This document shows positions 4,516 through 56,750 of a stretch of DNA of 64,000 nucleotides, piece by piece. The notes beneath the pieces were generated by a model. That model ran no database searches. It saw nothing but the letters and a program-made list of their open reading frames with translations, and had not been told where the DNA came from. Within the stretch, counting starts at the first letter, position 1; each line of letters begins with the position of its first letter. Position numbers and translations under genes: made by a program. This stretch comes from Rhodocollybia butyracea (lineage: Eukaryota; Basidiomycota; Agaricomycetes; Agaricales; Omphalotaceae): contig JADNRY010000193.1 in the NCBI GenBank assembly GCA_015501585.1, forward strand, positions 57,329 to 121,328, written 5' to 3'.

Positions 4516-4739
4516 AAACAGTTGTTATTGAGTCGAAAAGGGAAGAGAAACACGAGAAGTAGGATGCGATGAATAATAATACTGATAAATTAATTAATTG
4601 AGGAAATCCTTGTCTGCCTTACATGATCGCAGGGATCTGTGAGACTGCGATAAACCCATATACGGAGACGTATCTGCAATGGGAACCTCCTGATAGCGGT
4701 TAATTAAAACAGAAAAGACACGGCCCCGGTGAAACGCAT

Positions 4740-5370
4740 GAACATACGCCGCTGAGCGTCCCGTATCAGAGACATCTCCTGCTCAAGGAATCACCTTGCC
4801 CAAATAAACCGCCAGAAGTGAAGCCGCTAGAACTGAACATCAACAAGCGGCAGGCTCGCAATTTGGGAAGAACTCACATGGAAAATGCAAGTGCACTGCT
4901 GGAGTTCTCTCCGAAAAGGTTGTAGGTGTTGTTGTGGATAGTTATCTGATCTCTCCCAACGGCGCTATTAACTCCAGCAGAGACGGTAGTGTTGTTTGCT
5001 GGCATAAAAGTGACGTTCGGAGAGTGGTTGTGAGGCTGTCCAGGAGAGTAAGTACTCAACCGAAATGTTCTTGGGAAGGGGCATACCTCTAAATCCGACT
5101 CGTCATCACTGGATGCGTTGCTTGGCCGTAAACAATTTTGACAACGATGATATGACTGCCGTCGGTGCGGATGACGCTGTGAAGTACGAACATCCTAGGG
5201 ATGTGGCGTTAGAACGAGCTCGAGAGAGACTAATCTTGGATCAAACCAACCTCGTCCTCGAAGGTAGAACCCTCGGCATCAGATTCAGAGTCGCTATAAA
5301 CACACATGGAACAGTGATGCCGAGGTGGATTTTTCCAGTGACAATGATGCCAACTCTCCTCCGCGCTCAT
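4740..5370 (-). pseudogene. Remnant of spliced minus-strand gene in unit A
   Basis: On the minus strand an ATG at 5370 opens a short exon with a CSMC motif and an acidic Ser/Asp/Glu tail. A second open segment (about 5157-4887) has a C-x2-C motif, another acidic run, and an Asn-rich tail with the sequence AVGRDQ; it ends at a GTGAGT splice donor. Units B (17726-18552) and C (40700-40159 joined to 32638-32400) carry the same exons with many substitutions that keep the frame, which argues for past coding function. A short AVGRDQ-type block is seen near the N-termini of some agaricomycete STAND/NACHT-like proteins, but no P-loop is visible here, so the family is only a guess. In-frame stops and unclear splice joins make this a probable pseudogene. 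Confidence 0.45.
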
Positions 5371-5607
5371 TGCGCAGAGGATTCAAAAGAGTGACGACGA
5401 TAGGAGCATGTTTGCTCGGAGTATTGATACCATTTGCCCAACACAGCCTTCCTACCCACGTACAGCGCGCGCGGAAAGTTCAACAACTGCTTTGTTAACA
5501 GCTCTATTCTTGCCCCGAGCATTTGCATTCAACAATTGAGTAAAGTGGAACAGCTAAGAAGATAGCTCAGATAGGTGTGTTTTGGGTATGTTCAAGGCGT
5601 ATCTCGG

Positions 5608-17160: not shown

Positions 17161-20053
17161 GTGAAGAAGCCTCACATCTAAGAATACGGACTCTTGTGGT
17201 TTTTACCTTCTTTTAGCAAAGCTTACCGTCTAGAGTGGTCGGATAGTTCTAATATAAACCCATGAACAGCAAAGTAGCTGGATTCCCTATTTTCATTGCC
17301 CTATTTCTATCGACCATCGGAAGCCTTGCTCAACTCCCTCTTTCAAGTTGGGTTGTTTGCATATCCACTGCGCACGTCGTTGATTGGTTGATTCACTGGA
17401 CTTGTGGTTGACTGTGTCATTCGGTTATCAACTTCAGAAACGCTTTAGGCAGGTGAGTACTTACTTTCCGTTTCATTGATATCACTAGCAATGTTTGATA
17501 CTACTTATGTGATTACCAGTTGAAGTCATAGTGAGTGTTTGAGTACATAACAGTAGCCTGAGAGAGGTAAAAACAGGATCACCCCGAAGAAGAATAAAGG
17601 ACGGGAATCTTTCACAGGAGACGGAACCCGCAAGACTTCATACTGATTGTTTACCGATTGGCTATTGGACACGCATCTCTGGAGCGTCCTCACTCTTCTA
17701 GGCGAGTTGGAGAAGTATTATCGAGTCAAAAAGGGAAGAGGAACACTAGAAGTAGGATGCGATAAATGATAATAATATTGATAATTAATCGAGGAAAATC
17801 ACGGCAACGAAATTGACATGGCAATACATAGTGACAATGAACCCATATATGGAGACGTATCTGCAATGGAATTTTAACACAACAAGAAAAAAAAAAAGAC
17901 ACGGCCCCGGTGAAATGCATGAACATACGCCGCTGAGCGTCCCATATCAGAGACATCTCCTGCTCAAGGAATCACCTTGCCCAAATAAACCGCCAGAAGT
18001 GAAGCCGCTAGAACTGAGCGTCAACAAGGGCCAGACTCGCAATTTGGGAGGCACTAACATGAAAAATGCAAGTGCATTGTTTGGATTCTCTCCGAAATTG
18101 AACAAATTGTTGTTGTAGATAATTGTCTGATCTCTCCCAACGGCGCTATTAGTTCCACCAGAGACGGTAGTCTTGTTTGCTGGCAGAAAAGTGACGTTCG
18201 GAGCGTGGTTGCGAGGCTGTCCAGGAAAGTAAGTACTCAACTGAGATGTTCTTGGAAAGGGACATACTTGTAAATCCGCCTCGTCATCACTGAGTGCGTT
18301 GCTTGGTCGTAAACAGTTACGACAATGTCGAGCTGATTGGCGTTGGCGTGGATGACGTTGTAAGGTATGAGCATCCTATGGAGGTGGCAAGTCAAAATGA
18401 GCTCGAGACAAGCTAACCCGGATCAAACCAACCTCGTCCTTGAAGGTAGAACTCTCGGCATCAGACTCGGAGTCGCTGTGAATACACATAGAACAGTAAC
18501 ATCGATGTCGGGTTTTCCGCCGACGACGATGCCAGATCTCCTCCGCGCTCATTGTGGCTTGGGCTTGAAAGAGTTGGGACAAGAAGATATTTGTGGAGGA
18601 CCGGTCATTGTATTTGTATCTGCCCCACAGCTTACACGCGTACAGCGCGTGGAAAGTTCAACAGCTCTATTCTTGCCACTTGCATTCAACAATTGAGTAA
18701 AACAGCTATGAAGATAGCTCAGATAGGTGTGTTTTGGGCGTGTTCAAGGCGTATCTCGGCCACGTGTTGATAACGCTTGTCTTCTACCACGTTGTTTGTG
18801 TTCTTCTATGGACCCGGAACACCGGGCGTCGCAAAATCACTGTAATTCGCGAGCGAAAAGCTGCGGCAAGTGGAAGAGGAGATGGCATCGGTTCAGGGTC
18901 ACGTTGAAGCACTGGCAATAATAGTTACAACCGTCTTGTGATAGGCAAGAAACCAAAAGTGAGTCCGGTTCAGTTTGAATCAATTACTACCTCAACCTGG
19001 AACCAGTTCAGGAGACTGTCCTCTTGTCTTCTGGTCACACTTCAAACTTCTTCAGCTTGCCTTTGGCCTTATCCTGTGTTTCCATCGTCTACAATTCTTC
19101 CCGAAATTCCTAGGTCCTTTGTGTCCCTTTCCGCCCTCATTCAACTCCAAAATACTTGCACTGCAAATCTATTGGTAGCCCTGGTTGGCAAGATTGTTAT
19201 AAAGCTGCTTCAACATAGGTCAAGCTGAACAAAGGATAGCCGATATTCCTTACTCCATCGGCCTCCAATCAGCTTCCCCTTACCCTATTGGACTTTAGAT
19301 CCTTAGTTCTTTAGAGGTCAAAGCCAGGAGTTTCTTCTCGCAGGGCTCGGAGACTTTGCGCATAGCGGAGGATTCCATAGGTCACACCATGGCTTGTGGC
19401 CTGGTTCTGGTATGATATTGGATTCAAGGGACAATGATACTTCGTCATAAACACTTTCTCGGTATATTTTTCAGTCAAAATATAACACTCGTTGATAGCA
19501 ATAACCGCGCAAATTACACCTGGAGTTCTAGGAAATATTGGCAATCGATTATCAGCAATGGTTAGGTGTGTGTGCGATTCAATTCCCGCTCGTTACCGAT
19601 TATTGATTATCCTTTGAAACCGACTGTGAACTTGAACATTGCGAAGTTTCAGTTCTTCCTCTGATTGGAGCCATAGTTGGTGGAGTTTTTGGTGGATTTC
19701 GCTCATCCTTCTTCTACTTGAAAGACAGCAGGACCCAGAATTGAGCCTCCCTTATATGGGCCCAAGCGAAACCAACTCTCCGTTGGTGTTTGAACAGCGA
19801 TGAACTGTCCTGAGAGCATGTAAAGAGGCGATCGCAGGACCTTTTTTAGTGCATCCTCAAGAGCAACAACAGTCAGAAATATCTGGGGTAACAACTCATA
19901 CCTATGAATCTAGTTCCACCGGGAGGTTCAGAGATTCAGAGTTGTTTTTGGAGCATTCAGAGTGCATGAGTCGTTGATGAGGGTCGTAGATTCTTCAGAG
20001 GTTAAAGCAGAGTCGAGGCGGAAGGACCATCGTCCACCCAGGTACAAACAAAC
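17161..20053. repeat. Tandem repeat unit B (uninterrupted)
   Basis: This unit matches the flanks of all the insertions in units A and C and so shows the pre-insertion sequence at each. It begins with the block at 17161-17300 (also at 30316-30450) and runs through the block at 18745-18770 that restores the gypsy-1 target. It ends at about 20030, after which about 24 unmatched bases lead to the inverted repeat at 20054. Confidence 0.7.
17726..18552 (-). pseudogene. Remnant of spliced minus-strand gene in unit B
   Basis: The same exon set as in unit A is present: ATG at 18552 (an upstream Met also exists) with the Cys-x2-Cys and acidic tail exon to about 18400; a second open segment (about 18330-18069) with Cys-x2-Cys and the AVGRDQ motif; and a downstream open segment beginning EMSLI at about 17956. 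In this copy the splice donor after the second segment is GTTAGT rather than GTGAGT. The copy differs from unit A at many third-position and replacement sites. No catalytic domain is visible. Confidence 0.42.
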
Positions 20054-20130
20054 CGGATAATTCTATTTGGCAACCCGGTTGCCAGTGCAGCAACCCCTTT
20101 GTTATTTAGCAACCCAATTGCCAGTGGCCG
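20054..20130 (+). repeat. Left terminal inverted repeat and GCAACC subterminal copies
   Basis: It starts CGGATAATTC and contains four GCAACC or GGTTGC copies within about 70 bases, several spaced by roughly 25 bases. The mirror-image end is at 30239-30315. Repeated subterminal motifs next to a terminal inverted repeat are typical transposase binding arrangements. Confidence 0.7.
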
Positions 20131-20310
20131 GACTGCGCCGCGAGGATGGCCTAAAAGGTCCTATGTGTAACATCATAATAAATTATGTAAACTCAGAATT
20201 AAGTGGCGACCTTGAAGATCTGGGCACTCCGCATCAACGGTGACCTTTAAGATCTGATCTACTGAGTACTCTATGCAGTTATACCCAACAGGGTATACAA
20301 CAGCATGCAA

Positions 20311-22413
20311 GTGGCATCACCTCATATGCCCAGTAGGCCTAGATAGTAGCCTTTGACATGGGGGGTGTGATGGCATAGGCAGTTGTTATGAAGATCCGCT
20401 ATTATACGGTAGCGCAATAAAAGCGCTATATTTCGCATGGACTTCGATGTAAGATATCTCCTGAGTACCGGAAAGTTAGTACTGAGATCACGCGTATGCG
20501 CCTCCCGCCTCGAGTTTTCGCTGCCTCCCGCTCACCTCCAGTTTTCCCGAAGCTTAATATAACATTTACACCACTATAAGCTTTACATACCTCACAGCCA
20601 TACATGCTTTTATGTACACGATCTTGTACACAACCTTGTACATAAGTAAGCCAAATAATGTAAAGTTGTGGCTCCGCCATACAAATAATTCGTTCCATTG
20701 TTCTCCAATAATCGTAAGTGGCTGATGTATGAATAAACTCTCGCTCAACTGTTCAAGCTGCTGTTTGGCTTTGAGAGTGTCTCCGATGAGGCACAAGAGA
20801 CTACCATCTCATCTTCAATAGATACAATGAATAACTCATACATTGGATACATATTTTAAGTCTCGAGTAGTAGTGTGCAGTGTATAGCAATTAGTAAGGT
20901 TGTCTATGTAGTCTATAGGGCTAAATACTATTTTGTGAATACGCTGAACGATGAAGAGAGCTGTGGATGGAGCGTGGGAATGTACCGGAAGTGTTTGCCG
21001 GTGCTTCCGCTCGCTGTTCTAAACAGTGAACACAGGATGAAGACAATTTCTTATCAAGTGCGGACCTCACGGAAGCTCATGAGGATATAGAATCGTTCCT
21101 CCTCAAGCAAAAATTACATGCAAATACACGGGTAGTAGCTTGAAACACCCTCTCCTTTGTAAAGGGATGGGGTAAAACTCGTGCTCACCATCTAAAACAA
21201 CGAGGTCAAGCAAGGAAGACTTGTACTATGGCCTTCAAGCTTGGCCAGTAGGACAGTGTATAATAGCCTTCTATTATCCATTAAATTTGGCCACACTTAA
21301 GTGGTCTGATGATCTTGACATGACCTTACTTACATTCATTTGAGTTGTTGTACTGTACATTGATCCTTAAAGACCTATTACACACTTGAAACTGCTAAAC
21401 TTGTTCAATAACTCTAAGTTTGCCATATTATCTTAATATAGCATACTAAAATCTATCTCCAGTATATCAAGCCCATAGGTAAATTTTTTCCTTCTTGAGA
21501 ACACTGTTTTGTCTCGTGAGCATGAGCTGCACTGTATCCCTTTACAAAGGAGAGGTGTTTCAAGCTACTCCCCGTGTATTTGCGTGTAATTTTTACTTGA
21601 GGAGGAACAATTCTATATCCTCATGAGCTTCCGTGAGGTCCGCACTTGATAAGAAATTGTCTTCATCCTGTGTTCACTGTTTAGAACAGCGAGCGGAAGC
21701 ACCGGCAAACACTTCCGGTACGTTCCCACGCTCCATCCACAGCTCTCTTCATCGTTCAGCGTATTCACGAAATAGTATTTAGCCCTATAGACTACATAGA
21801 CAACCTTACTAATTGCTATACACTGCACACTACTACTCGAGACTTAAAATATGTATCCAATGTATGAGTTATTAACTGTATCTATTGAAGATGAGATGTT
21901 AGTCTCTTGTGCCTCTGAATCGGAGACATTCTCAAAGCCAAACAGCAGCTTGAACAGTTGAGCGAGAGTTTATTCATATATCAACCACTTATGATTATTG
22001 GAGAACAACAGAGAACAATGGAACGAGTTATTTGTATGGCGGAGTCACGACTTTACATGCCCTTATTAGGCTTACTTATGTTACAAGGTCGTGTACAAGG
22101 TCGTGTACATAAAATGTATGGCTGTGAGGTTTTTAAAGCTTATAGTGGTGTAAATGTTATATTAAGCTTCCAGGGGGTGAGGAAAAACTGGAGATGAGCG
22201 GGAGGCGGCACAAACTCAAGGCGGGAGGCGCATACGCGTGATCTCGGTACTAACTCGGGAGATATCTTACATCAAAGTCCATGCAAAATATAGCGCTTTT
22301 ATTGCACTACCGTATAATAGCGGATCTTCATAACAACTGCCTATGCCATCACACCGCCCATGTCAAAGGCTACTATCTAGGCCTACTGGGCATATGAGGT
22401 GAGTGGCATTACA
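20311..22413. repeat. Large imperfect palindrome, arms about 880 bp
   Basis: The left arm (about 20311-21189) and the right arm (about 21517-22413) are inverted copies, with only scattered substitutions and small indels. The same 71-codon frame is readable at 20875-21090 on the plus strand and 21613-21828 on the minus strand with a single residue difference. The unique spacer is about 330 bp. The arms have no recognisable coding content. They could be two copies of one element (for example solo LTRs) inserted head to head, or a foldback element. Confidence 0.85.
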
Positions 22414-22454
22414 AGCTTGACCGCGCCAACCAGTTATAGCGCAAATGCATTCCT

Positions 22455-22526
22455 GGTAGCTGTGCTATTTATTGTGGTGACCGCAATCCCAGCTTTGCAG
22501 TGGCTACAATAAATAGCACAGCCACA
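22455..22526. repeat. Small hairpin repeat, copy 1
   Basis: About 30 bp (GTAGCTGTGCTATTTATTGT and following) is repeated in inverted orientation with a 7-base loop. It is related to copy 3 at 29901-29978, including the ATGCATTCC sequence just left of the stem. Paired changes between arms are present. It is probably a miniature inverted-repeat element. Confidence 0.75.
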
Positions 22527-24242
22527 GTGCACCTATCATTTTGTCATCTGAGTCATAGTGGTCACTAGGCTTGCACATCTTGGCGTTCATGTCAGTACCT
22601 GTCAGGGCTGCCCCGCCAAACCAAGACCAAATTGGTCTGACCAATTGGACTGATCAAAACCGAAAGGACCGATTTGACCGATTAAGACCGATTCTGGCTC
22701 AGGTGACCCCGTGACTTGGGAGAAAAAGGCAGGTCTGACTCATAGAAGGTTGTAGCCTGTCCGACACACTAGGAACCGGCGTAAACTTAAAATATGTATA
22801 CGTACTTCTTGTTTGTACAAGCAGCATTGCTCATATCTAAATTTGGCCTTATTAAGAATGCTGCTTGTGCTTGAGAACTCATAAAGCTCTTTTGGGAGCC
22901 ATCTTCTTACTGCTGCAGTGTATTTTCATAGAGAAGTATTCATATATGATGGATCTTTATGTGCCTCCTTGTAGGACATAAAAACCTCTTGTACTCGGAG
23001 TGCATGTATTTCAGTTTAGGCCAGGGTAGCCGGCCGCCAGAAATGTAGCATAAGCGCCCAATTTCCGAATTTATGTTTCTTCACCTTTTTATCAGTCAAT
23101 AAAATATTATACAGCTTGAATCAAGCCTATGAGAGTATCTAGGTGTGTGACTGCAAAAAAATATCTGATATTCAGCAGAGAAAAGATATTTGAAGGACCG
23201 GAAGAAATACAGTTACAGTAAGTACCCTTTTCTACCTTAATTTACTTCTCTACTAGTAAATCCTTGTGAATCAAGGGACTAGGAGGAATGGGATCTTGGT
23301 GTGCATTTGTCGGTGGAGCACCGCTTATCGAGAGATCTTGGTCCGCATCACCGAATATACGTTACCATATGCCCTTTCGGGCTACCCTGACTTACCTCTC
23401 CGTTGACACTCAGAATATAGACCTCATGCACTTGATTACTAGTACTACTAGCTGAGCCACGAAAGTAAGAGTGGTTATAAGTTTTGAATCATCTTCGTAA
23501 GTCTACAGACGCCAAAATCGCATGATAAACGTGTGATTCGGTTATTTCCATTCATTTTCACCAAAAAGGCAATTGCCGTAAATGCACATGACTCTTTTTG
23601 GCGCTTATTCGGGCTTCACTTCTCGTTGCTCTTATTTCCCTTATCTGTACAGCCAAAGGAGCTCCTGCTGTGGGTAAAGGTATGCTCCTTCTACGTCTTT
23701 CTCTGATAGTTTTCTCTATTCTCGGTGATCTCAGCTTAGATTCTAACAACGGGGCAAGTATGATTCACCTGCCTGCTTCGGCCACACCCTTCACAATCTT
23801 CCCAACCCGCTCACACGTGCATTGACAACTGTTCATCGCAATGGCCGGAATCCAACCTTCTGGTGTTCAATCAGAGTACTCTATTCCCAAATCACCATTC
23901 CACAACGCATACGAGCCATTTGCATCAATCCGTACATCTCTTCTCTAAGGCTTACTTTGATCAGCTGTAACAACTAGATCTCTAACACCATGTCCCAGAG
24001 CGAGTGAACTACACGATTACCTCCTAGCCCATTTGATAGTAATCCTCCTCAGAGTCCTGTTGTCATTGATGAGCGCTGTTGCATTTTGGCTTCGATGGAG
24101 GTGGATGGTCTGCACAACTGGAATTTTCTACCATCGAGCCATGAAAATGGCACTTGGGGTAGTGCTTGTGTATGCTTGGGTATGTCGCCTACTATACATG
24201 CACTCACCAGGGATACTCTAAATAATTTGGAGGCTGTGTAGG
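22527..24242. other. Non-coding stretch, possible secreted-protein remnant near 23598-23690
   Basis: The region lacks a convincing gene. Three GACCGATT copies occur near 22640-22690. At about 23598-23690 a plus-strand frame encodes a hydrophobic stretch ending in Ala-Lys-Gly-Ala-Pro-Ala, resembling a signal peptide and followed by a GTATGC donor, but no in-frame ATG precedes it. It may be a decayed exon. Nothing else is recognised. Confidence 0.3.
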
Positions 24243-24290
24243 TTTGTTTATGCCACCGCAATCCTGGTTTTGCGGTGGCATAAACAAAGC
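24243..24290. repeat. Small hairpin repeat, copy 2 (divergent)
   Basis: The stem GTTTGTTTATGCCACCGCAA pairs almost perfectly across a loop of about 6 bases with TTTGCGGTGGCATAAACAAA. The loop-proximal GCAATCC and TTGCGG resemble copies 1 and 3, but the outer stem is different. Confidence 0.65.
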
Positions 24291-25002
24291 ATGCCAGCAC
24301 TAATACATACCAAATGTCATAAAGCTCTAGGGCTGTAGAATTGTATTGGCACTCTACTTCTCCGTTAACCCTGTGTGCGCGGCAGTTTACAAGCAATTGT
24401 CGGCACTTGAGTATACTGCCGCTTAATGAGAGAGTTAAGAACCTACCGAATCCCTCTGCTGTTTGAAGTAGTCAAAAGAAAAAATAATCCAGCAATCTTG
24501 TTGATAGTTGTGATATCCTTAAGCACTCATTATATTCTAGTACAAAGTAAATTAAAACGTGAAATTTACGTACACAATATTGCAACACGCTGAGTGCCCT
24601 GTTGGCCTGTAAATCCTGTGAATTGAACAGTAAATTGAGCAGTAAATTCTGTAAATTGATGGCTATTAAGTACTTATCATAATTAACAGGGAGGAATACA
24701 ATCCCAAATAAGTTGCACCATTATTCTTCACCGTTCGGAACGCGTGAGCTATGGTCACATGTTCGTGTAATTTTGTTTACTGTTCCTTTACTGTTTACGA
24801 GCATTACCTCAATAATCTATGGCTATACCTACTATACCTTCATCTCATGCTGAAGCTTGTTATAATCCAACAGGATTTTGAACTTTCGGGTTGCAAGAAT
24901 GCAAAAATCAGTGGTCATGGCCATTTGTCTGACTTTGTTTGGAATACTGCGTGGGCAATTGAGACGAATATTAGGAGTATTTTTTCTTCTCTTGCTGCCA
25001 CT

Positions 25003-26739
25003 ATGAGTGAAGACAATATCTGGAAGGTAAGCAGCTACCAGTATCATGACTTCTACACCCTAACACTTGATGATTAGGTGTTAGAGCCACCACAGAAGTA
25101 TACCTCGCTAACGGAAATTTCAATTCACACACTGGAAGGAACACAGCGGCCAATGGTGATTGGCGTCGATGCACGGTATGAAATTATTTCATGCTTTGAT
25201 TCTTAGAGCTGATATGTCATTAGTTATTGGATGCTCAAGGCGCAAGAGCGAGCAGAATGCTATCTTGGCCTACAGAGAGATAAAGAATCAAGATATCTGC
25301 TCCTCCTGTGGATGTGTAAGCTTCGGAAAAAGCCTATAGTTGCAATCTTTGTCTTTGACGGGCCAGATGTCCCTCATCGCACCCATGGACCCTTTACAGC
25401 TCCGTTTGCTGATGATCTCATAAGATTTTTTCAACAACTCATCAGAAGTAACGGATTCTACATTCATCAGGTATCTTTAATCCCCTGAAGTTCTTCACGA
25501 ATCACTAGATGACCATACTCTTAGGCTGCTGGAGATGCAAGTGTGGCACTTTGGCAAATTGATAAACAAGTTGACGCTGTCATGACTGAGGACATCAGAG
25601 TCTTGGTGTTTGGAGCTGTATCGCTTTTCCATACGTACGTATTTTCACTAACCTCTTTGAACCGCTGAAAAAAATAGCACTCAATATCTTTCCAGCGCAA
25701 AGTTTTTTGACGATCTCGACACACTTGCTTTTTTCTCAACCGAAGGCCTCTCCCAGCGCAGCGAAAGACCGTTGACACCTCATGGCATTTTTCTTCTGTT
25801 GATTCTCATGGGAAATGACTATGCGAGCGTGAGGAATGTCATGTCTTTTTGCTTTTATACATGTTTATGTTCGATTTCAGGGTATTCCAATAATTACAGC
25901 TGAATTTGCATATGCTCTCACCAACACGGCACTCAAAAGCCTTCTGATCTTCGCAGCAGAAGACTACATGTCACGGCCGCTCCAGCTTCAAGAATATCTG
26001 TGCACCTGGAAAGACGCTCTTGAAAACGCAATCAGGAGTAATACACACGACTTTTTGCCTTCGGCGTTGCCTGATCTCGCAGAGGTTATTCAAATCACAC
26101 AGAATTTTCCCAATTTCCAGGCAGTGACACGTCTGGCCCAGCCTACCAGCATGCAGCCTACACCTTTTCCAGTATGGCTCGTACAACCCCCAGATTTCAT
26201 GGCCATTGCAGATACATGTCAAGAAGTCTTTGACTATGCTCCTGTGCAACACGTATCGGAGATGCAGCACCATATTTGGAGTGCATATGTTGTAGGATCT
26301 CTTCTCGATGTACGTGTTGATACCATCATATCTTTGCTGATTTCTGACTGTTATCCAGGTTGAATGCAATCGTAGGGCTCATTATGATATTCACGCATCA
26401 ATACGTGTTATCGATATTTGATTCCATGCCTCAATCACCACTTACCGTCTGGATGTTCACGTCAGCGATACTTTCTGCAACACTCACATTCCAGGTAGTA
26501 GGATTCAATTCTGGGTGCCAGCTGTGATAGTGGCCTCAGCACTTTGTTCTGCGGTACAAGACTACCAGATTGACCTCATCATGAACACCAAGTGGCCGAT
26601 TGCATATTCGAAGGCGAAACTTTTTTTAGTACGTCGATTGAAGGAAATCCATTTTCACAAGCTGACATTATTGTTAGTTGCCTCCTCTGTCCACAGCAGG
26701 CGTTATATGTCTTCATCACGCTCTGAAGAATCAAACTGA
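25003..26739 (+). pseudogene. XPG/FEN1-family (PIN-like) nuclease gene, spliced, one in-frame TGA
   Basis: The family comprises structure-specific endonucleases acting on branched DNA. Exons fit at 25003-25026, 25078-25175, 25224-25470, 25525-25634, 25678-25828, 25881-26309 and 26359-26739, with 44-54 bp GT-AG introns and matching phases. XPG-type landmarks in order are: an N-terminal LW-like start, VIGVDAR, FVFDGPDVP, AAGDASVAL (where the family has GEAEAEL), VMTEDIRVLVFGA (family TDDxDxxxFG), LLILMGNDYASGIP (family LxxGxDYxxG). Both Glu of the GEAEA motif and one later Asp are replaced, so catalytic activity is doubtful. A TGA at 26419-26421 interrupts the last exon, while the frame stays open for about 105 codons after it; CGA to TGA would explain it. 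The tyrosine recombinase gene starts 255 bp downstream on the same strand. Confidence 0.75.
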
Positions 26740-26994
26740 TATGATGGAAGCAGACCAGGATGCATTGGAGGTGGAGGTTGAACTATTATCACAGTGAAGT
26801 ACCGTTGTATTAATATTGTCACAACAAACTGGAGAACTATTACTTGTTTGTGTATAAATTTAATCCTGTATTCTCATTTATTACTGTGTTGGGTAAAACG
26901 AAAGTGAATGGCGCTCTGGAAAGAATGAAACAGGGGCTGCCGGCTTTTCAGACGTTGATTCCGTGCTGACGCGCTTTAACTTTTCCGGACTACA

Positions 26995-29289
26995 ATGCCA
27001 AAAGCAAAGACGAAGAAGACATCAAAGTTGACAGCGGAAAAGAATATACCATCGCTTGATGAGCTGAACCAGGCTGGTGCAAAAACTCGTGAAGATCATG
27101 GTCAGGCAGGAAAAACCAAGAAGAACTACAATGGCTACCTGGAACGAGGAGATAAGATTCTTGCTGGAATTGTCCAGGCTCGTAAAGCGGCAGAGAAGGA
27201 AGGGAAGGTGTTTTCTGATGGTGTTGTATCTTCTGAATTGGCCAAAGCATTTGACAATCCACCAAATAAGTGGTCGTCGAAGGCACTCGAGTTGATCTTG
27301 ATTCAGAAATGTATCCATGAAGGATGTGGAAAGAGCACCATGGATGGCATGCATGCTGTGTATGCTAAACGCTGGGACGAAATGTATGTCTTGAAACCTA
27401 AAGTTCAAATAAGCTATCACCTCACAGATTGAACTCGCAGGGATGGCGAAAAGTATGCAGGCGAGACTTATCATTGTGATGAGAAGACAGGAATCATTAC
27501 TGGCAATCCGGCACGCTCTCACCTCATAAATACCTTCCGACAAGTCATCAAGACAAGGGAAGCAGCGAAAGGAGTTGAAGCGACCAGAAACCATGCAGAA
27601 GCAATGACAGTTGAAGATATCGAAGCAATGATTGCTTGGTCAGAGAATACATGTCCAAAATCTGCAGTCGACTCAGTTCTCTCTGGCTCTGACCAGAATG
27701 CCAAAGATGTAATGCTTGTGATTGAGCATACATTTCTCCGAGGGTTCTTAAGTTCGGGTTTTACCCTGTGGACAAGGTACGTCCATGTTTGTGATAAACA
27801 AAATATGTCTAGAATTCAAACATATGTATAGGAACAATGAGCTGTGCAAGTTGCAGTATGGAAATCTTACCTGGAATTGCCGTGGCCTTGCACCGGACTT
27901 TGTAGAACATTTCAAGGTTCACCTTGAGAATCGAAAGGGATGGCAGAAGAAGGCAGGCTATGATGCGCATCCCACAGGTAAGTCGCTTTGATTACAACCT
28001 TTGATTGACTTATTCGATGTCTTTTCAGACAATCACTATGATATCTACCCACAACCAGTCCATGCGATGGACATGCACTACCATCTGCCAGTCTGGATGA
28101 AGGTTTACCGTCATGTTCTTGGGCGAGATTTTGAGTGCGATGACTTTGTTTTTCCATATTTCTCTGTAAATGGAACAATCCAGCCTAAACAAGAGATTCA
28201 GAGCCATGATATGATTCAGTCACTCATCCAGGAGGCTGCAGCGGCAGCAGGGTTGACGAAGATTTTTACAACTCATTCCTTGCGTCGAGGTGGGGCCCAG
28301 TACCGTTTCATGTGGGCGGAAGGGAAACAGCGATGGTCACTCACCATTGTCCGCTGGTGGGGAGGGTGGGCCGAAGATGAACGAGTCAGTGATTCTTAGA
28401 CTAAATCAACCTTTATTTGATCAATGCGCAAAATTTGTAGGTTGATACATTGATGAAATACTTGATGGATTCCTTGCAGAGCTACGAGACTGGACATGGA
28501 AATGCACTCTGTCCTTTGAGACTTGAACCAGCTAAAAGTTTCATGAGTGATCACTCACTGGATCAGCCTGTAACGGTGAACAATTTCCGTTGTTTCACTG
28601 AGGCAATGATGGGTGCGAATCAGCGGGTTATTGATATGCTGTGCAGTGCACCAGAACTCTCTCTGGCACATATGCGCCAGATGTCCTTGGCAGATACAGA
28701 AGCACAAGGAAACACTCTGCAACCTTCTCACATCTCCCGCACTGATCAGTCAATGGAACGTCTCCTGGTAGAGAAGCACTGCCGCCAGAAATCAACCAAG
28801 GAAAGGAGTGCACCTATTCCTGGTGTCATCGTTCCCGATATCCCAAAACATGGTGAAGATTTGTTTCTTGCTGTAGTGAAGCAGTGGGAAGAAGGAGATC
28901 CTTCACAAGGGCTGGTTATGCCATTGAAAGACTGGCCCGTCGAGTGGTATACAGGGAATATGCGCCTTGTCACCGGAACAAAGCGTTCCAACCGTAAACT
29001 GATTGCAGAAGAGTACGAGCGGTGAGTAACTGATGCTGCATAATTTTTGAAGAAAAAAAAATCTTACACTGGTCCCTTCAATAGGCTAGGACGATCCAAC
29101 GATGCATTCAAGGCGGCGTACCCCAGGATCTACAATAACCTGACCAAGCTCTATGCTGCAATCCGAGCAAGAAACCCAGGACGTGCGCGCAAGAGCAAGA
29201 ACGGGTCACGAGAAGAGCGTGAGCATGAGCGCAAGAGACAAAAGAAGCATCCTGACACTCATGAAGGATCCGAAGATGAAGGGGAATAA
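26995..29289 (+). CDS. Tyrosine recombinase (phage-integrase fold), six exons, 670 residues
   Basis: Tyrosine recombinases cut and rejoin DNA through a covalent 3'-phosphotyrosine. Exons at 26995-27383, 27441-27776, 27832-27977, 28029-28384, 28441-29021 and 29085-29289 join with consistent phases and GT-AG introns of 51-63 bp to an intact frame. The N-terminus is Lys-rich (likely nuclear import). The catalytic set can be placed as Arg242 (box I, in TRNNELCKLQ), His373 and Arg376 (HSLRRGG), Trp404 (WWGGWAE) and Tyr416 (LMKYLMD). The C-terminus is basic, with a possible nuclear localisation segment. The pattern resembles eukaryotic Crypton- or DIRS-like recombinases in general; I cannot assign a named family. 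The gene is undamaged, unlike most element genes nearby. Confidence 0.82.
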
Positions 29290-29900
29290 CTGGCTGCAAA
29301 CATTGAATAAATAGAATCAAGTTTTATAATAGTAATTCTGACCTAACTAACTTACCGTATTTTATGTACATTTTACACATTACTTCAATCGCATCGTTAT
29401 AAGTACCAAATCCTAATCTAGACGTCCGTTTGTACTTACCAGCGGGGACGCGTTTTGAATGGGCGTTGAATATACTGCCGGCAACTGATCTTATGTCAAA
29501 CGCTCGGCAAATCCGGCTCACCCGGCTAGCTTCAATAGCGATCCCGATCCGATCAATCTTTATTCAAAACGGTGACGCCAAGCTGAGACCACTACGCCAG
29601 AGTAAGCCTCCGTGGCCGCCTAGTAGTGTAAATTATCAGACATAAGTAAGTATAAGTTGCCCAATGATCAAAAATGCAAGTCAAATGCAAGCAATGATAT
29701 CGAGTCACACAAATATGTAAATGTAGAATGGGCTAGCTCTACCTATTAGTATAGGTACTAAGTTGTTTGCCCAGCCTGAGGTCTGAGGCCTCGGTGGGTT
29801 TGCTTCCGTCTTGAGTCATAGGCCTCAGGCCTTGCGCGTGCGCCTGTGGCGCACGCGAGGCCTCGGTATGACCAATTTACCCATGTCAGAAGATGCATTC
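29290..29900. other. Non-coding stretch downstream of the recombinase, with a GC-rich palindrome
   Basis: No gene is recognised. A GC-rich hairpin (GCGTGCGC, short loop, GCGCACGC) lies at about 29835-29862, between repeated GAGGCCTCGG and GGCCTCAGG motifs. The recombinase's terminator is likely in the A/T-rich sequence just after 29289. Confidence 0.4.
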
Positions 29901-29978
29901 CCGGTGGCTGTGCTATTTGTTGTGGCCACCGCAAAGCAGCAGCTGAGCGGTGACCACAATAAATAGCACAGCCACCGG
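29901..29978. repeat. Small hairpin repeat, copy 3
   Basis: The 32-bp arms beginning CCGGTGGCTGTGCTATTT are inverted around a loop of about 14 bases with two mismatches. It matches copy 1 at 22455-22526 including the left flank ATGCATTCC. Confidence 0.8.
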
Positions 29979-30076
29979 AACGGCGTGACTTTGCCATAGA
30001 TTTAATAATAATATTTTTTCGGTGGGGTCATGCAAGCTCAAGCTCTCCCATAAACTCGAGGCTGAGCATTTGGAAA

Positions 30077-30152
30077 CAGAAACACCCTCTCCCAATCGGG
30101 AAGTATGGTTTACACCGGAACCATACTTCCCGATTGGGAGAGGGTGTTTCTG
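30077..30152. repeat. Perfect 34-bp inverted repeat with 8-base loop
   Basis: The arms at 30077-30110 and 30119-30152 are perfectly complementary, starting CAGAAACACCCTCTCCC, around the loop TACACCGG. GCATTT occurs on both sides (about 30066 and 30159), a possible short direct repeat. It looks like a very recent hairpin or miniature element. Confidence 0.85.
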
Positions 30153-30238
30153 ACCTCCCGGCATTTATACAAACAGTAATTAAGTGTTGCCGTCACTCCG
30201 TGATACAACGGAGCAGGGCCGAGCGGCAACCCCACTGA

Positions 30239-30315
30239 AAAGAAACCCAAAGTAGGGGTTGTCAATTTATGTGGGGTTGCCGCTGTCCAACCGGGTTGCC
30301 AAATAGAATAATCCG
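30239..30315 (-). repeat. Right terminal inverted repeat and GCAACCC subterminal copies
   Basis: Read on the minus strand it starts CGGATTATTC and then continues like the left end at 20054, with GCAACCC copies after it. It abuts, at 30316, sequence matching unit A/B at 17161 (the CTCACATCTA block). Confidence 0.7.
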
Positions 30316-32638
30316 AAGAAACCTCACATCTATAAATACGGACTATTGTGGTTTTTACCTTCTTTTGGCAAAGCTTACCGTCTAGACTGGTCAGATATTT
30401 TAAAATACACCCATGAACAGCGAAGTAGCTGGATTCCCCGTTTCCACTGGCACCACTGGCATATCGACCAGAAGCCTTGCTCGACTCCCTTTTCCAAATC
30501 GGATTGCTTGCATCATGGCTGCGCACGTCGTTGATTTACCGGACTTATTGTTGACTGTGTCATTTGATTAGCAACTTCAGAAACGCTTTAGGGAGGTGAG
30601 TACTTACAATGTTTACTTTCTGTTTCGTTGATATTCCTAGCAGTGATGTTTGATGATATGCCATGACCAGTCGAAGTCATAGCAAGCGTTTGAGTACACA
30701 TCTGTAGACCACTAATCACATCCTCCGTATCGGTCCAAGCTTCGTGCTGTTGTCGCTCATCACCTTTTACTGTGAGGTGTGCAATAAAATTCATTTGGCA
30801 ACTAGCCAACAGTGTGCGTAGCTTGGCCCGCTGAGTCTCCACTCATTGCTTTTCCATCGGAGCTGTAGTTTGGTTGTGGCAAGGCAGCCCAATCGTAAAT
30901 GTCTTCATGTGCAAATAGAACAGTTGTTGTAGAATAGTGCCCATATATGCAATTAGCACTCTTACCATCATCATCCAAAACTATCGAGGTAATCCTACCT
31001 CATAGCACCGTCCGATTCCCATGGGAATCGCCACATACATGCACATAACGAGTGTCTCGCTGCTCCTCTAGTTTAGAGGGCAAAAGTACTCTTTTTCATT
31101 GTCGGCATGGATAACGACGACGAGACTTGGTGATGCGCACTACAGCCACAGCCTCCATCACGGCCCGCTGCCGGACAGCCACATCTTAGTGCGAGACGGC
31201 GCCAGTTTTACTTGCAAAGCATAGATTTAGAACTTCACGTTCATGTTCATAAATGGCAATGTATAGTGTTTGCCGTAGTACTAGAAGATGACAATGAGAT
31301 TTGCTGCTGCGCACCATAGCCACGGCTTCCGTCTCAACCCGCTACCAACAACCACACTTTAGTGTCGTTGCTTGTGCTTGAGACGGTGTCAGTTTCATCT
31401 ATGTGTACACAACGCATAGTCCTGTATGTAGATACTTATTAATTTACCTGTACTCTTGGTCTCTCCTGTGGCTCACGGATCTACCTCTACCAAAGCGTAG
31501 TGAGCTCATCCAGACACCCAGGAGTTGGCCCCAAGACAATAACGTACATACATATAAGTACATTAGGTAGCTTCTCGGATGTATCAGCACTTGGTCCCAA
31601 GCCGGTAATAAACCTAAACTAACCATCACACCAACATGAACACAATCACGCAAGCTTGGCATATTCTCCTAGTTCTCAACCCCAATATCCGAAGTCTTCC
31701 AGACTTACCTCATTTCAAGGGAGCGGATTGGATCCATTCAATTACTTGAAGAAACTCCTGTGAGTCCACGCTCAGCAGATAGAGTAGATAGTGAATATGT
31801 TCTTGGCCTTGAAGATTGGAATCCCCGGGACGGATAGCAAAGGATTTGACCTACCAGAAGCAAATATTTTCAGGGAGTACTAGATAAGAATTAATAACAT
31901 AAAACTCTTGCGTTAATAAGTGTTCAAGGGAAGCTCGCCAAATTTGGATCTTGCGCACCAGTTACTATTTCTGAAATTGGCCTAATACGCCAGTTCATCG
32001 CACTATATTACTACTGAATGGCAACATAAAACGGTTGATTAGGTCGGAAAGAAAAGGGGCATATAGCGGCCAGGTTGTTTCCTAGTAACCTAACCTAACC
32101 TAGAGCCTGGTGGAGACTCGTGATTGGATGGAAACTTGATACTGATTGTTTACTAGTTGGTCGTTGGACATGTATCTTTGGAGCTGTCCTTACTCTTCAA
32201 GGAGAGTTGGAGAAAACATAGTTGTTATCGAGTCAAAAAGGGAAGAACAAGAAGTATGATGCGACAAAAACTAGCCCTACAGGATGTGATAAATAGATGC
32301 ACAGGATGCAATTAAGAACTGATAAATATATCATTTACAGTACCAGTAAACCCATCTACAGAGGCGTATCTGCAATGGGAATACAAACACGAAAGTGAAG
32401 GTGAAAAAAAGACAGGATCCCGGTGAAACGCATGAACATATGCCGCTGAGCGTCCCATATCAGAGACATCTCTTGCTCAAGGAATCACCTTGCCCAAATA
32501 AACCGCTTGAAGTGAATAAACCGCTAGAAATGAACATCAACAAGCACCAGCCTTGCATTTTGGGAGGCACTCACATTAAAAATGCCAATGCTCCGTTTGA
32601 ATTCTCCCCGAAAATGATCAGAGTGTTGTTGGTGTTGT
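30316..32638. repeat. Tandem repeat unit C, left part
   Basis: It starts with the same block as unit B at 17161 and contains a stretch matching unit A at 3960-4500 (about 31620-32180). It ends at 32638 in GGTGTTGT, where the long-TIR element has inserted. Between about 30720 and 31600 it has sequence not seen in unit B. No intact gene is seen; the last 240 bases correspond to the C-terminal exon region of the remnant gene. Confidence 0.65.
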
Positions 32639-32723: not shown

Positions 32724-32766
32724 TACCGACCTTGGTACTACCAGATTGGTAGTACCAAGGTCGGTA
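32724..32766. repeat. Hairpin within the left terminal repeat
   Basis: TACCGACCTTGGTACTACC pairs perfectly with its inverse across a 5-base loop. The copia element has inserted at its right edge, duplicating GGTAA. Confidence 0.8.
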
Positions 32767-32767
32767 A

Positions 32768-33172
32768 TGTCGAAGGGAGTATCTTCGGAGTAAGGAGTCC
32801 CGCCCTTCGCCTCTTTCGGCTTCCGTTGTAGGTGGGACGTGTTTCGTCTGGGGTATGGTTTATCCTCCCGGAGGGGGGTATTATTTTCCTTGATTTCTAT
32901 ATTATTTATCTTACCTATTTCGTTTATCCGAGTGCCTATCTCTGACTTGGCAGTTTCGTGTATTGACTTATATACAGGTCATGTTGTCCTTATCCCTCAG
33001 TCGTTGTCTTGCACACTTCTGAGGGTACGTCTACTTTATTTATATTTCTGTGATACTCATACTTACGCTTATGTACTTAGTTAAGCTTATACGCGTTTCA
33101 CAGGTACTTACCGATCTCAATACGAGTCGTTGTCTTGCACACTTCTGAGGTTAAGCTTATACGCGTTTCACA
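32768..33172 (+). repeat. 5' LTR of the copia element
   Basis: It is 405 bp, TG...CA ended. It contains two nearly identical copies of a segment ending TTATACGCGTTTCACAGG near its 3' end (about 33090-33108 and 33156-33174), an internal direct repeat. The 3' LTR has the same internal repeat. Confidence 0.95.
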
Positions 33173-37524: not shown

Positions 37525-37529
37525 GGGAG

Positions 37530-37934
37530 TGTCGAAGGGAGTATCTTCGGAGTAAGGAGTCCCGCCCTTCGCCTCTTTCGGCTTCCGTTGTAGGTGGGAC
37601 GTGTTTCGTCTGGGGTATGGTTTATCCTCCCGGAGGGGGGTATTATTTTCCTTGATTTCTATATTATTTATCTTACCTATTTCGTTTATCCGAGTGCCTA
37701 TCTCTGACTTGGCAGTTTCGTGTATTGACTTATATACAGGTCATGTTGTCCTTATCCCTCAGTCGTTGTCTTGCACACTTCTGAGGGTACGTCTACTTTA
37801 TTTATATTTCTGTGATACTCATACTTACGCTTATGTACTTAGTTAAGCTTATACGCGTTTCACAGGTACTTACCGATCTCAATACGAGTCGTTGTCTTGC
37901 ACACTTCTGAGGTTAAGCTTATACGCGTTTCACA
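37530..37934 (+). repeat. 3' LTR of the copia element
   Basis: It is preceded by the purine run AGGGGAG (37523-37529), the likely polypurine tract. It has the same length and sequence as the 5' LTR as far as I can compare by eye. Confidence 0.95.
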
Positions 37935-40158: not shown

Positions 40159-40712
40159 GGTGTTGTTGATAATCGTCTGATCTCCCCCAACCGTCAACGG
40201 CGCTATTAGTTCCACCAGCGACGGTAATCTCGTTTCCACCGTGTGTAGAGCGTGATGGCAGAAAAGTGACATCCGGAGCATGGTTGCGAGGCTGTCCAGG
40301 AGAGTAAGTACTACTGAACTGAGATGTTGTTGGAAAAGGAGATACCTCTAAAGCCGACTTGTCATCACTGGATGCGTTGCTTGGCCGTAAGCAATTTTGA
40401 CAATGATGATATGACTGCCGCCGGTGCGGATGACCCTGTGAAGTACGAACATCCTAGGGCGGTGGCATCAGAACAAGCTCGAGAGAGACTAATCTTGTAT
40501 CAAACCAACCTCGTCCTCGAAGGTAGAACCCTCGGCATCAGATTCAGAGTCGCTATAAACACACATGGAACAGTGACACCGAGGTGGATTTTTCGGGGGA
40601 CGACTCTGATGCCACCTCTCCCCTTCGCTCATGGCGCAGAGGGTTCGAAAGAGTGACAATGGAAGCACATTTGCTCACTAGTATTTGTGCCATTTGCCCA
40701 ACACAGCCTTCA
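40159..40712. repeat. Tandem repeat unit C, right part (truncated)
   Basis: It continues unit C after the long-TIR element. It matches unit A at about 4930-5450, including the Cys-x2-Cys exons of the remnant gene on the minus strand. Similarity ends at about 40712, so this unit is shorter than A and B, or is cut by an older rearrangement. Confidence 0.7.
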
Positions 40713-56331: not shown

Positions 56332-56750
56332 AAGTTATTATTTGGAGATAGCTCGACAAATAATAATAATAAGATTACCCTCGGAGATAGCTCAACAAGC
56401 AGTAATATGAATCAGAACTAGTACTCGGAGATGGCTCAACAAGTAGTAGTGAGTGTGGTGTCTAGTACTCGGAGATAGCTCAACAAGTAATAGTGAGTGT
56501 GGTGTCTAGTACTCGGAGATAGCTCAACAAGTAATAGTGAGTGTGATGTCTAATACTTGGAGATAGCTCAACAAGTAATAGGAAGTTGCAACTCAGAGAT
56601 AGCTCAACAAGTGGCAATTAAGAAGTATTCACTAGGAGATAGCTCAACAGGTGAATGTTAGTGGATACAACTTGGAGTTAGCTCAACAAGATGTATAAAT
56701 GTGTATTGTAACTTGGAGATAGCTCAACAATATACAATGAGTTGGTCTGG
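56332..56750. repeat. Array of ten hairpins with conserved core GGAGATAGCTCAACA
   Basis: The core occurs ten times with at most two changes each. Sequences on both sides of each core are inverted complements of each other, but differ from unit to unit: for example TTATTATTT/AAATAATAA, TTGCAACT/AGTGGCAA, ATTCAC/GTGAAT, ATACAACTT/AAGATGTAT. Spacers vary in length. This is a stem-loop array with covarying stems, in the sequence right after pol. Confidence 0.85.

Follow-up and report, generated by a model that had tools for sequence, protein, structure and literature searches.

A Crypton-type tyrosine-recombinase element with a GEN1/XPG-like gene, very probably the innermost of four nested elements in Rhodocollybia butyracea

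How many mobile elements make up a 10.26 kb segment of the agaricomycete Rhodocollybia butyracea that begins and ends with the same sequence in opposite orientations, and to which of them do the two genes inside it belong? The segment lies at positions 20054–30315 of a window of 64,000 nucleotides (assembly GCA_015501585.1, contig JADNRY010000193.1, 57,329 to 121,328 of the forward strand), and it holds a gene for a GEN1/XPG-like protein next to one for a tyrosine recombinase (YR). A preliminary description of this DNA had offered two answers, a new recombinase-based element with terminal inverted repeats (TIRs) or a TIR transposon carrying both genes as cargo. Comparison with other copies in the same genome (95.6 Mb in 1381 contigs, the window's own being C487) leads us to a third, namely that positions 20055–30314 are very probably a nest of four elements, with the gene pair in the innermost, a Crypton-type YR element on the forward strand at 23219–29648 (6430 bp, both copies of a terminal TAAGTA included).

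The limits of the YR element emerge when its copies are aligned, for these share a left boundary (window 23219) and a right boundary (29648) and have unrelated flanks. With up to three mismatches allowed, the left end (TAAGTACCYTTTTCTACC) is matched 19 times in the genome and the right end (CTGTAAATTATCAGACATAAGTA) 18 times; the control was the reversed pattern, and it gave 0 for both. The two ends stand in correct order and orientation on 12 contigs, the remaining matches being single ends. TAAGTA, which end alignment places on the forward strand at 23219–23224 and 29643–29648, is present at all 13 of the left ends compared with their flanks and at 9 of the 12 right ends, the others on the right reading TAAGTC (twice, in copies sharing flanks) and TAATTT (once); over all end matches the figures are 15/19 and 14/18. 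No terminal inverted repeats were seen by eye in the left ends of 13 and the right ends of 12 copies, and the listing of inverted pairs in the window, which took in repeats of 25 nt or longer, contains none at 23219/29648. GTAAAT-type inverted repeats at the termini (ATTTAC-N10-GTAAAT on the left in most copies, GTAAAT on the right) may be binding sites for the recombinase. With ends at 23219 and 29648 formed by a direct and not an inverted repeat, the notion of a new recombinase-based element with TIRs is wrong.

Loci that lack the element tell the same story. Four of the 12 two-ended copies were taken through an empty-site test (those of the window, C312, C645 and C540), and each has an uninterrupted match elsewhere with a single hexamer in the empty site. 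The window flanks, joined with one TAAGTA into a query of 552 nt, run without interruption through 7 loci at 97–98% identity, with a single TAAGTA in all 7 of the junctions read, and the same query matches 22 more loci at 75–87% over most of its length. The copy on C312 has one empty site, 100% identical (rounded) over 403 nt and with one mismatch in a later-aligned stretch; that on C645 has 8 (89–97%, two junctions read), and that on C540 has 16 (81–82%, one junction read), the three copies together accounting for four junctions read. In this last case the empty target reads TAAGTC, and in the filled site the left hexamer is TAAGTA and the right one TAAGTC, in agreement with hexamer exchange; the left hexamer therefore came from the element and the right from the target, one mismatch being tolerated here. 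Insertion takes place at the hexamer, and a longer duplication is absent. Comparison of filled with empty sites, which in one case hardly differ apart from the insertion, fixes the crossover to the hexamer, and C540 reveals which of the two copies derives from the target.

Because the joined flanks match so many loci uninterrupted, the sequence on either side of the YR element in the window is itself a dispersed repeat, here called X. Repeat X, the third layer of the nest counted from outside, spans 22596–29881, its own sequence being 22596–23218 and 29649–29881, between the two copies (22588–22595 and 29882–29889) of a target-site duplication (TSD), CATGTCAG, which occurs twice in the window and once each in C816 and C918. 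The 552-nt part of X is found at 7 loci at 97–98%, at 2 at 85–87% and at 20 at 75–77% identity, and no clear terminal inverted repeat could be made out by eye. An element bounded by this 8-bp repeat (22596–29881) was considered and rejected, as other copies of the gene-bearing element end at 23219 and 29648 and the flank is repeat X. The second layer, at 20318–22401, is a palindromic element of 2.08 kb, the bulk of which is a single long inverted repeat (its arms measure 362, 150, 90 and 75 nt, at 91–98%), with the TSD AGTGGCAT at 20310–20317 and 22402–22409; this octamer, too, is found twice in the window and once each in C453 and C918, both of which lack the second layer. With the YR element counted as the fourth layer, empty sites have been read for layers 2 to 4.

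What remains is the outermost layer, to which the inverted ends belong. These had been described correctly: they are present at 20054–20081 and 30288–30315, 28 nt long and 96% complementary. A 20-mer of the TIR occurs 16 times exactly in the genome, and a 21-mer with up to three mismatches is matched 78 times, as against 0 for the reversed pattern, so the repeat is not due to chance. Four other TIR pairs, inspected over their whole length, enclose 0.83–2.38 kb, from which it follows that the ends are those of a family resembling miniature inverted-repeat transposable elements (MITEs). Layer 1 is then a TIR/MITE-type host element at 20055–30314 (forward strand; TIR GGATAATTCTATTTGGCAACCCGG) whose own sequence amounts to approximately 20055–20317, 22410–22595 and 29890–30314. 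Just outside it lie the 9-mers AAACAAACC (20046–20054) and GAAGAAACC (30315–30323), identical at 7 of 9 positions. Elsewhere in the family the TSD is an exact 9 bp in C453, agrees at 8 of 9 positions in the first C816 pair and at 7 of 9 in C918, and is not clear in the second C816 pair, so that the outer layer combines TIR and TSD in the manner of a TIR transposon or MITE.

Aligned with the window, the short copies of contigs C453, C816 (its first pair) and C918 cover 20055–20320 and then 22402–22595, and resume at 29882, 29981 or 29915 towards 30314; the long intervening stretches are missing, the copies being continuous where the window holds 20318–22401 and 22596–29881. Within the stretch matching 22402–22595 the first C816 copy carries an extra insertion, and the second pair on C816, which has diverged further, can be matched to the window near the ends only. 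C918 is a near-allelic locus or a very recent paralogue, its identity to the window being 97.8% on one side (over 3765 bp) and 96.7% on the other (over 646 bp); it has the MITE at the same site, and layers 2–4 are missing.

Could these short copies instead be internal deletions of one TIR-bounded element of 10.26 kb, mobilised by the YR or of the DDE type with cargo? Its ends are correctly oriented, with near-matching 9-mers outside, but the short copies miss each insert together with one copy of its 8-bp repeat, the gene pair is found again, within boundaries of its own, on contigs where the TIR has no match, and the inner boundary at 23219/29648 has empty sites of its own. On the strength of the empty sites we reject such an element and give it hardly any credence. 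Nor can the pair be called the cargo of a TIR transposon, since TIR copies occur short and without the inserts, and the pair occurs elsewhere without TIRs; the inverted repeat and the genes, which the preliminary description had joined in one element, come apart. This is the outcome which that description had itself named as refuting its reading, namely ends of a small MITE-like family and a gene pair present elsewhere without them. The locus is a caution that elements inserted into one another can pass for a new composite element.

The recombinase of the YR element is encoded on the forward strand at 26995–29290 by an open gene of 670 codons for amino acids, modelled with exons 26995–27383, 27441–27776, 27832–27977, 28029–28384, 28441–29021 and 29085–29290. 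A relative of 39% identity has the same residues at R242, K277, H373, R376, W404 and Y416, and these six catalytic positions are kept in the 15 of 15 rows that could be mapped, the sole exception being R376 → C in C549. All four catalytic-domain members have weak matches to Phage_integrase and DUF3435 (best E 0.0028 and 0.0014), and PHROG integrases are matched by 3 and 1 of 4 members (best E 5.3e-5). Relatives were also sought in viral contigs and in bacterial and archaeal contigs, where 60 and 84 pattern matches yielded none that was confirmed. Two distant relatives in the same genome, L078 (C839) and L079 (C590), carry the motifs WTRN, HCFRRGGAQ and WWGGW. As for the rest of the element, 23219–24990 looks non-coding, the tblastx matches listed (C722, start of C540) falling in many frames and on both strands, and among seven further open reading frames compared with Pfam (not an exhaustive set), with an eye to the DDE transposase or reverse transcriptase that a Crypton should lack, 6 had no match at E ≤ 0.1 and one matched Hit1_C at 0.033.

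Is this, then, a Crypton? The element encodes a tyrosine recombinase, is without terminal inverted repeats and has terminal direct repeats within the 4–6 bp typical of Crypton insertion sites; it is particularly like CryptonF of fungi, for which 6-bp terminal direct repeats are described as the likely recombination site (Kojima and Jurka 2011, PMC3212892). It differs in its extra GEN1/XPG-like gene and in that GCR1_C, a C-terminal domain of fungal CryptonF elements, was not detected in the YR members or in C-terminal pieces at E values up to 10. Besides this missing domain, the assignment has to contend with the faintness of the protein matches: the window YR is weak in Pfam (catalytic domain E 0.034; full protein none), is the member without a PHROG integrase match, and barely reaches the recombinases of the Protein Data Bank (IntI4, E 1.2).

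The DUF3435 matches raise another possibility, a small relative of the Starships, whose captain recombinase carries this domain. The catalytic core here is weakly DUF3435-like, the best match being that of the relative on C590 (20.6 bits, E 2.4e-4), but this lies below the curated cut-off of 25.8. Starships, moreover, are giant elements that open with the captain gene at their 5' end, whereas the present element is 6.4 kb long, has two genes instead of giant cargo, and has its YR towards the 3' end. We regard a Starship affinity as very unlikely and retain the Crypton-type assignment.

The anatomy just described is already known from Cryptons. The partner gene lies on the forward strand at 25003–26421 (modelled exons 25003–25026, 25078–25175, 25224–25470, 25525–25634, 25678–25828, 25881–26309 and 26359–26421), so that the two adjacent, same-strand, spliced genes reported earlier, of nuclease and recombinase families, are indeed there. 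In the window the gene ends in a premature TGA (26419–26421, exon 7), which none of the other six copies has at that place, several of them having stops or shifts elsewhere. The closest solved structure is that of the Holliday-junction resolvase GEN1 of Chaetomium thermophilum (CtGEN1; 5cnq, E 1.2e-11, the alignment covering CtGEN1 residues 17–307), with XPG at 3e-7. The match to XPG_I, at 23.7 bits, is just below the cut-off of 24.9; this profile gives 18 matches across the genome, none within YR elements of this family, and the seven XPG-like copies that the protein query finds are not among them.

CtGEN1 has seven catalytic acidic residues, and alanine substitutions are reported to impair its cleavage (at D38 relatively little) while leaving DNA binding almost unchanged (PMC4695337). 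When these positions are mapped through alignments to 5CNQ, the element-borne protein does not have all seven. It might nevertheless be active as a nuclease on junctions or flaps and process the recombination intermediates of the element, as would suit the kinship with GEN1 and the retention of D38 (7 of 7 copies), D79 (5 of 7), D141 (7 of 7) and D199 (6 of 7), with E120 replaced by D in all seven. On the other hand, E122 has become S in 7/7 copies, and D143 has become R in 6/7, the remaining copy having a stop codon there, and we find an active nuclease rather doubtful. An XPG-like relative of 55% identity, L076 (C477:59200–60700), on a contig without a YR match, has K in place of GEN1 D143.

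The linkage of the two genes is conserved. A search with the YR protein found 15 high-identity loci and more distant ones, and at 7 of the 15 (C487, which is the window, and C169, C312, C540, C568, C645 and C1050) the XPG-like gene closely precedes that of the YR and is read from the same strand; the other six loci are on contigs without a TIR match. In this the preliminary description was right: the two genes are a conserved pair within a mobile element, at 7 loci of this genome. Six of the XPG-carrying copies (all but C568) give twelve deep pairs, for which substitution rates were estimated, exons 1–6 being used for the XPG-like gene. The latter has dN/dS of 0.20–0.26 at dS of 0.60–0.75, and the YR in the same pairs has dN/dS of 0.10–0.14 at dS of 0.56–0.65; YR pairs that include XPG-lacking copies give 0.09–0.17. 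Three recent pairs are higher, at 0.41–0.45 (XPG) and 0.51–0.74 (YR), as is expected of decaying copies, and the very recent YR pair C724/C639 has 0.36. These ratios show both genes to be under purifying selection.

How might such a partner take part in transposition? The YR would excise the element as a circle with one TAAGTA, as has been proposed for Cryptons, where circle excision and integration at short repeats are put forward from the sequences of the ends (PMC3212892). The circle junction would read ...CAGACATAAGTACC..., and the circle would recombine into a TAAGTA-like target by YR strand exchange. Tyrosine recombinases pass through a Holliday junction. Because the partner is akin to GEN1 and its active site is altered, our best guess, a tentative one, is that it binds this junction and shapes or protects it but does not cut. 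It is possible, if well short of probable, that a Crypton lineage recruited a GEN1-like resolvase that lost its cutting site and was kept as a Holliday-junction binding partner, one that would control the four-way intermediate of the recombinase in excision or integration and so make up a two-component tyrosine-recombinase transposon.

Several points weigh against this account as a whole. The analysis is of the sequence of one genome; as modelled, each of the 7 pair copies has at least one gene that is not open; and an XPG match next to the YR is missing from 8 of the 15 close copies. Five XPG-lacking copies (C639, C724, C1157, C656 and C549) have the same left end, and since they share it and the YR of C724 is open, not every element requires the XPG-like gene. 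No XPG remnant better than E 0.43 was found in six XPG-lacking copies (C549 and C656 being partial), and close XPG matches without a YR match occur on C548 and C477. The gene might then be a passenger captured from the host, useful neither to recombination nor to the element. The copies without it suit this idea, as does a YR tree rooted on two distant YRs, in which the copies without the gene lie towards the outgroup; the tree weakly suggests that the gene was gained within the family, the outgroup branch being very long. C722 groups with the carriers and has no stretch matching window 24789–26793, and it probably lost the gene by deletion. A passenger is, however, hard to square with the constraint on the XPG-like gene over the twelve deep pairs, where its dS resembles that of the YR, a pattern indicating long joint retention, and we consider this alternative unlikely.

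Should the GEN1-like partner act on the junction formed by the recombinase, eukaryotic YR transposons would have an accessory factor, and control of Crypton excision and integration would become testable. From CtGEN1, its closest solved relative, the partner differs in that the carboxylates equivalent to E122 and D143 are replaced and that it is encoded in a mobile element. As additional enzymes of Cryptons, PMC3212892 mentions a C48 peptidase and also, for one composite element, a mariner transposase. A literature search that covered few subscription papers, with Repbase outside it, found no text with both "crypton" and "xpg" and none on Cryptons as transposable elements of agaricomycetes; further listings, judged by title and the opening of the abstract and in several cases limited to the best 12–20 matches, contain none that describes an XPG-like/YR pair.

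An Rfam scan of 19900–30500 gave no match. Elsewhere in the window, diverged repeat units at 4706–5405, 17887–18587, 32404–32631 and 40253–40664, at spacings of at least 13 kb, form an array that hosts the nest. Two direct repeats of 300 nt (32763–33062 and 37525–37824; 99% identical, 4.76 kb apart) are possibly the long terminal repeats of a young retroelement, and a 33-nt repeat occurs in ten copies, spaced 36–44 bases, at 56340–56743.

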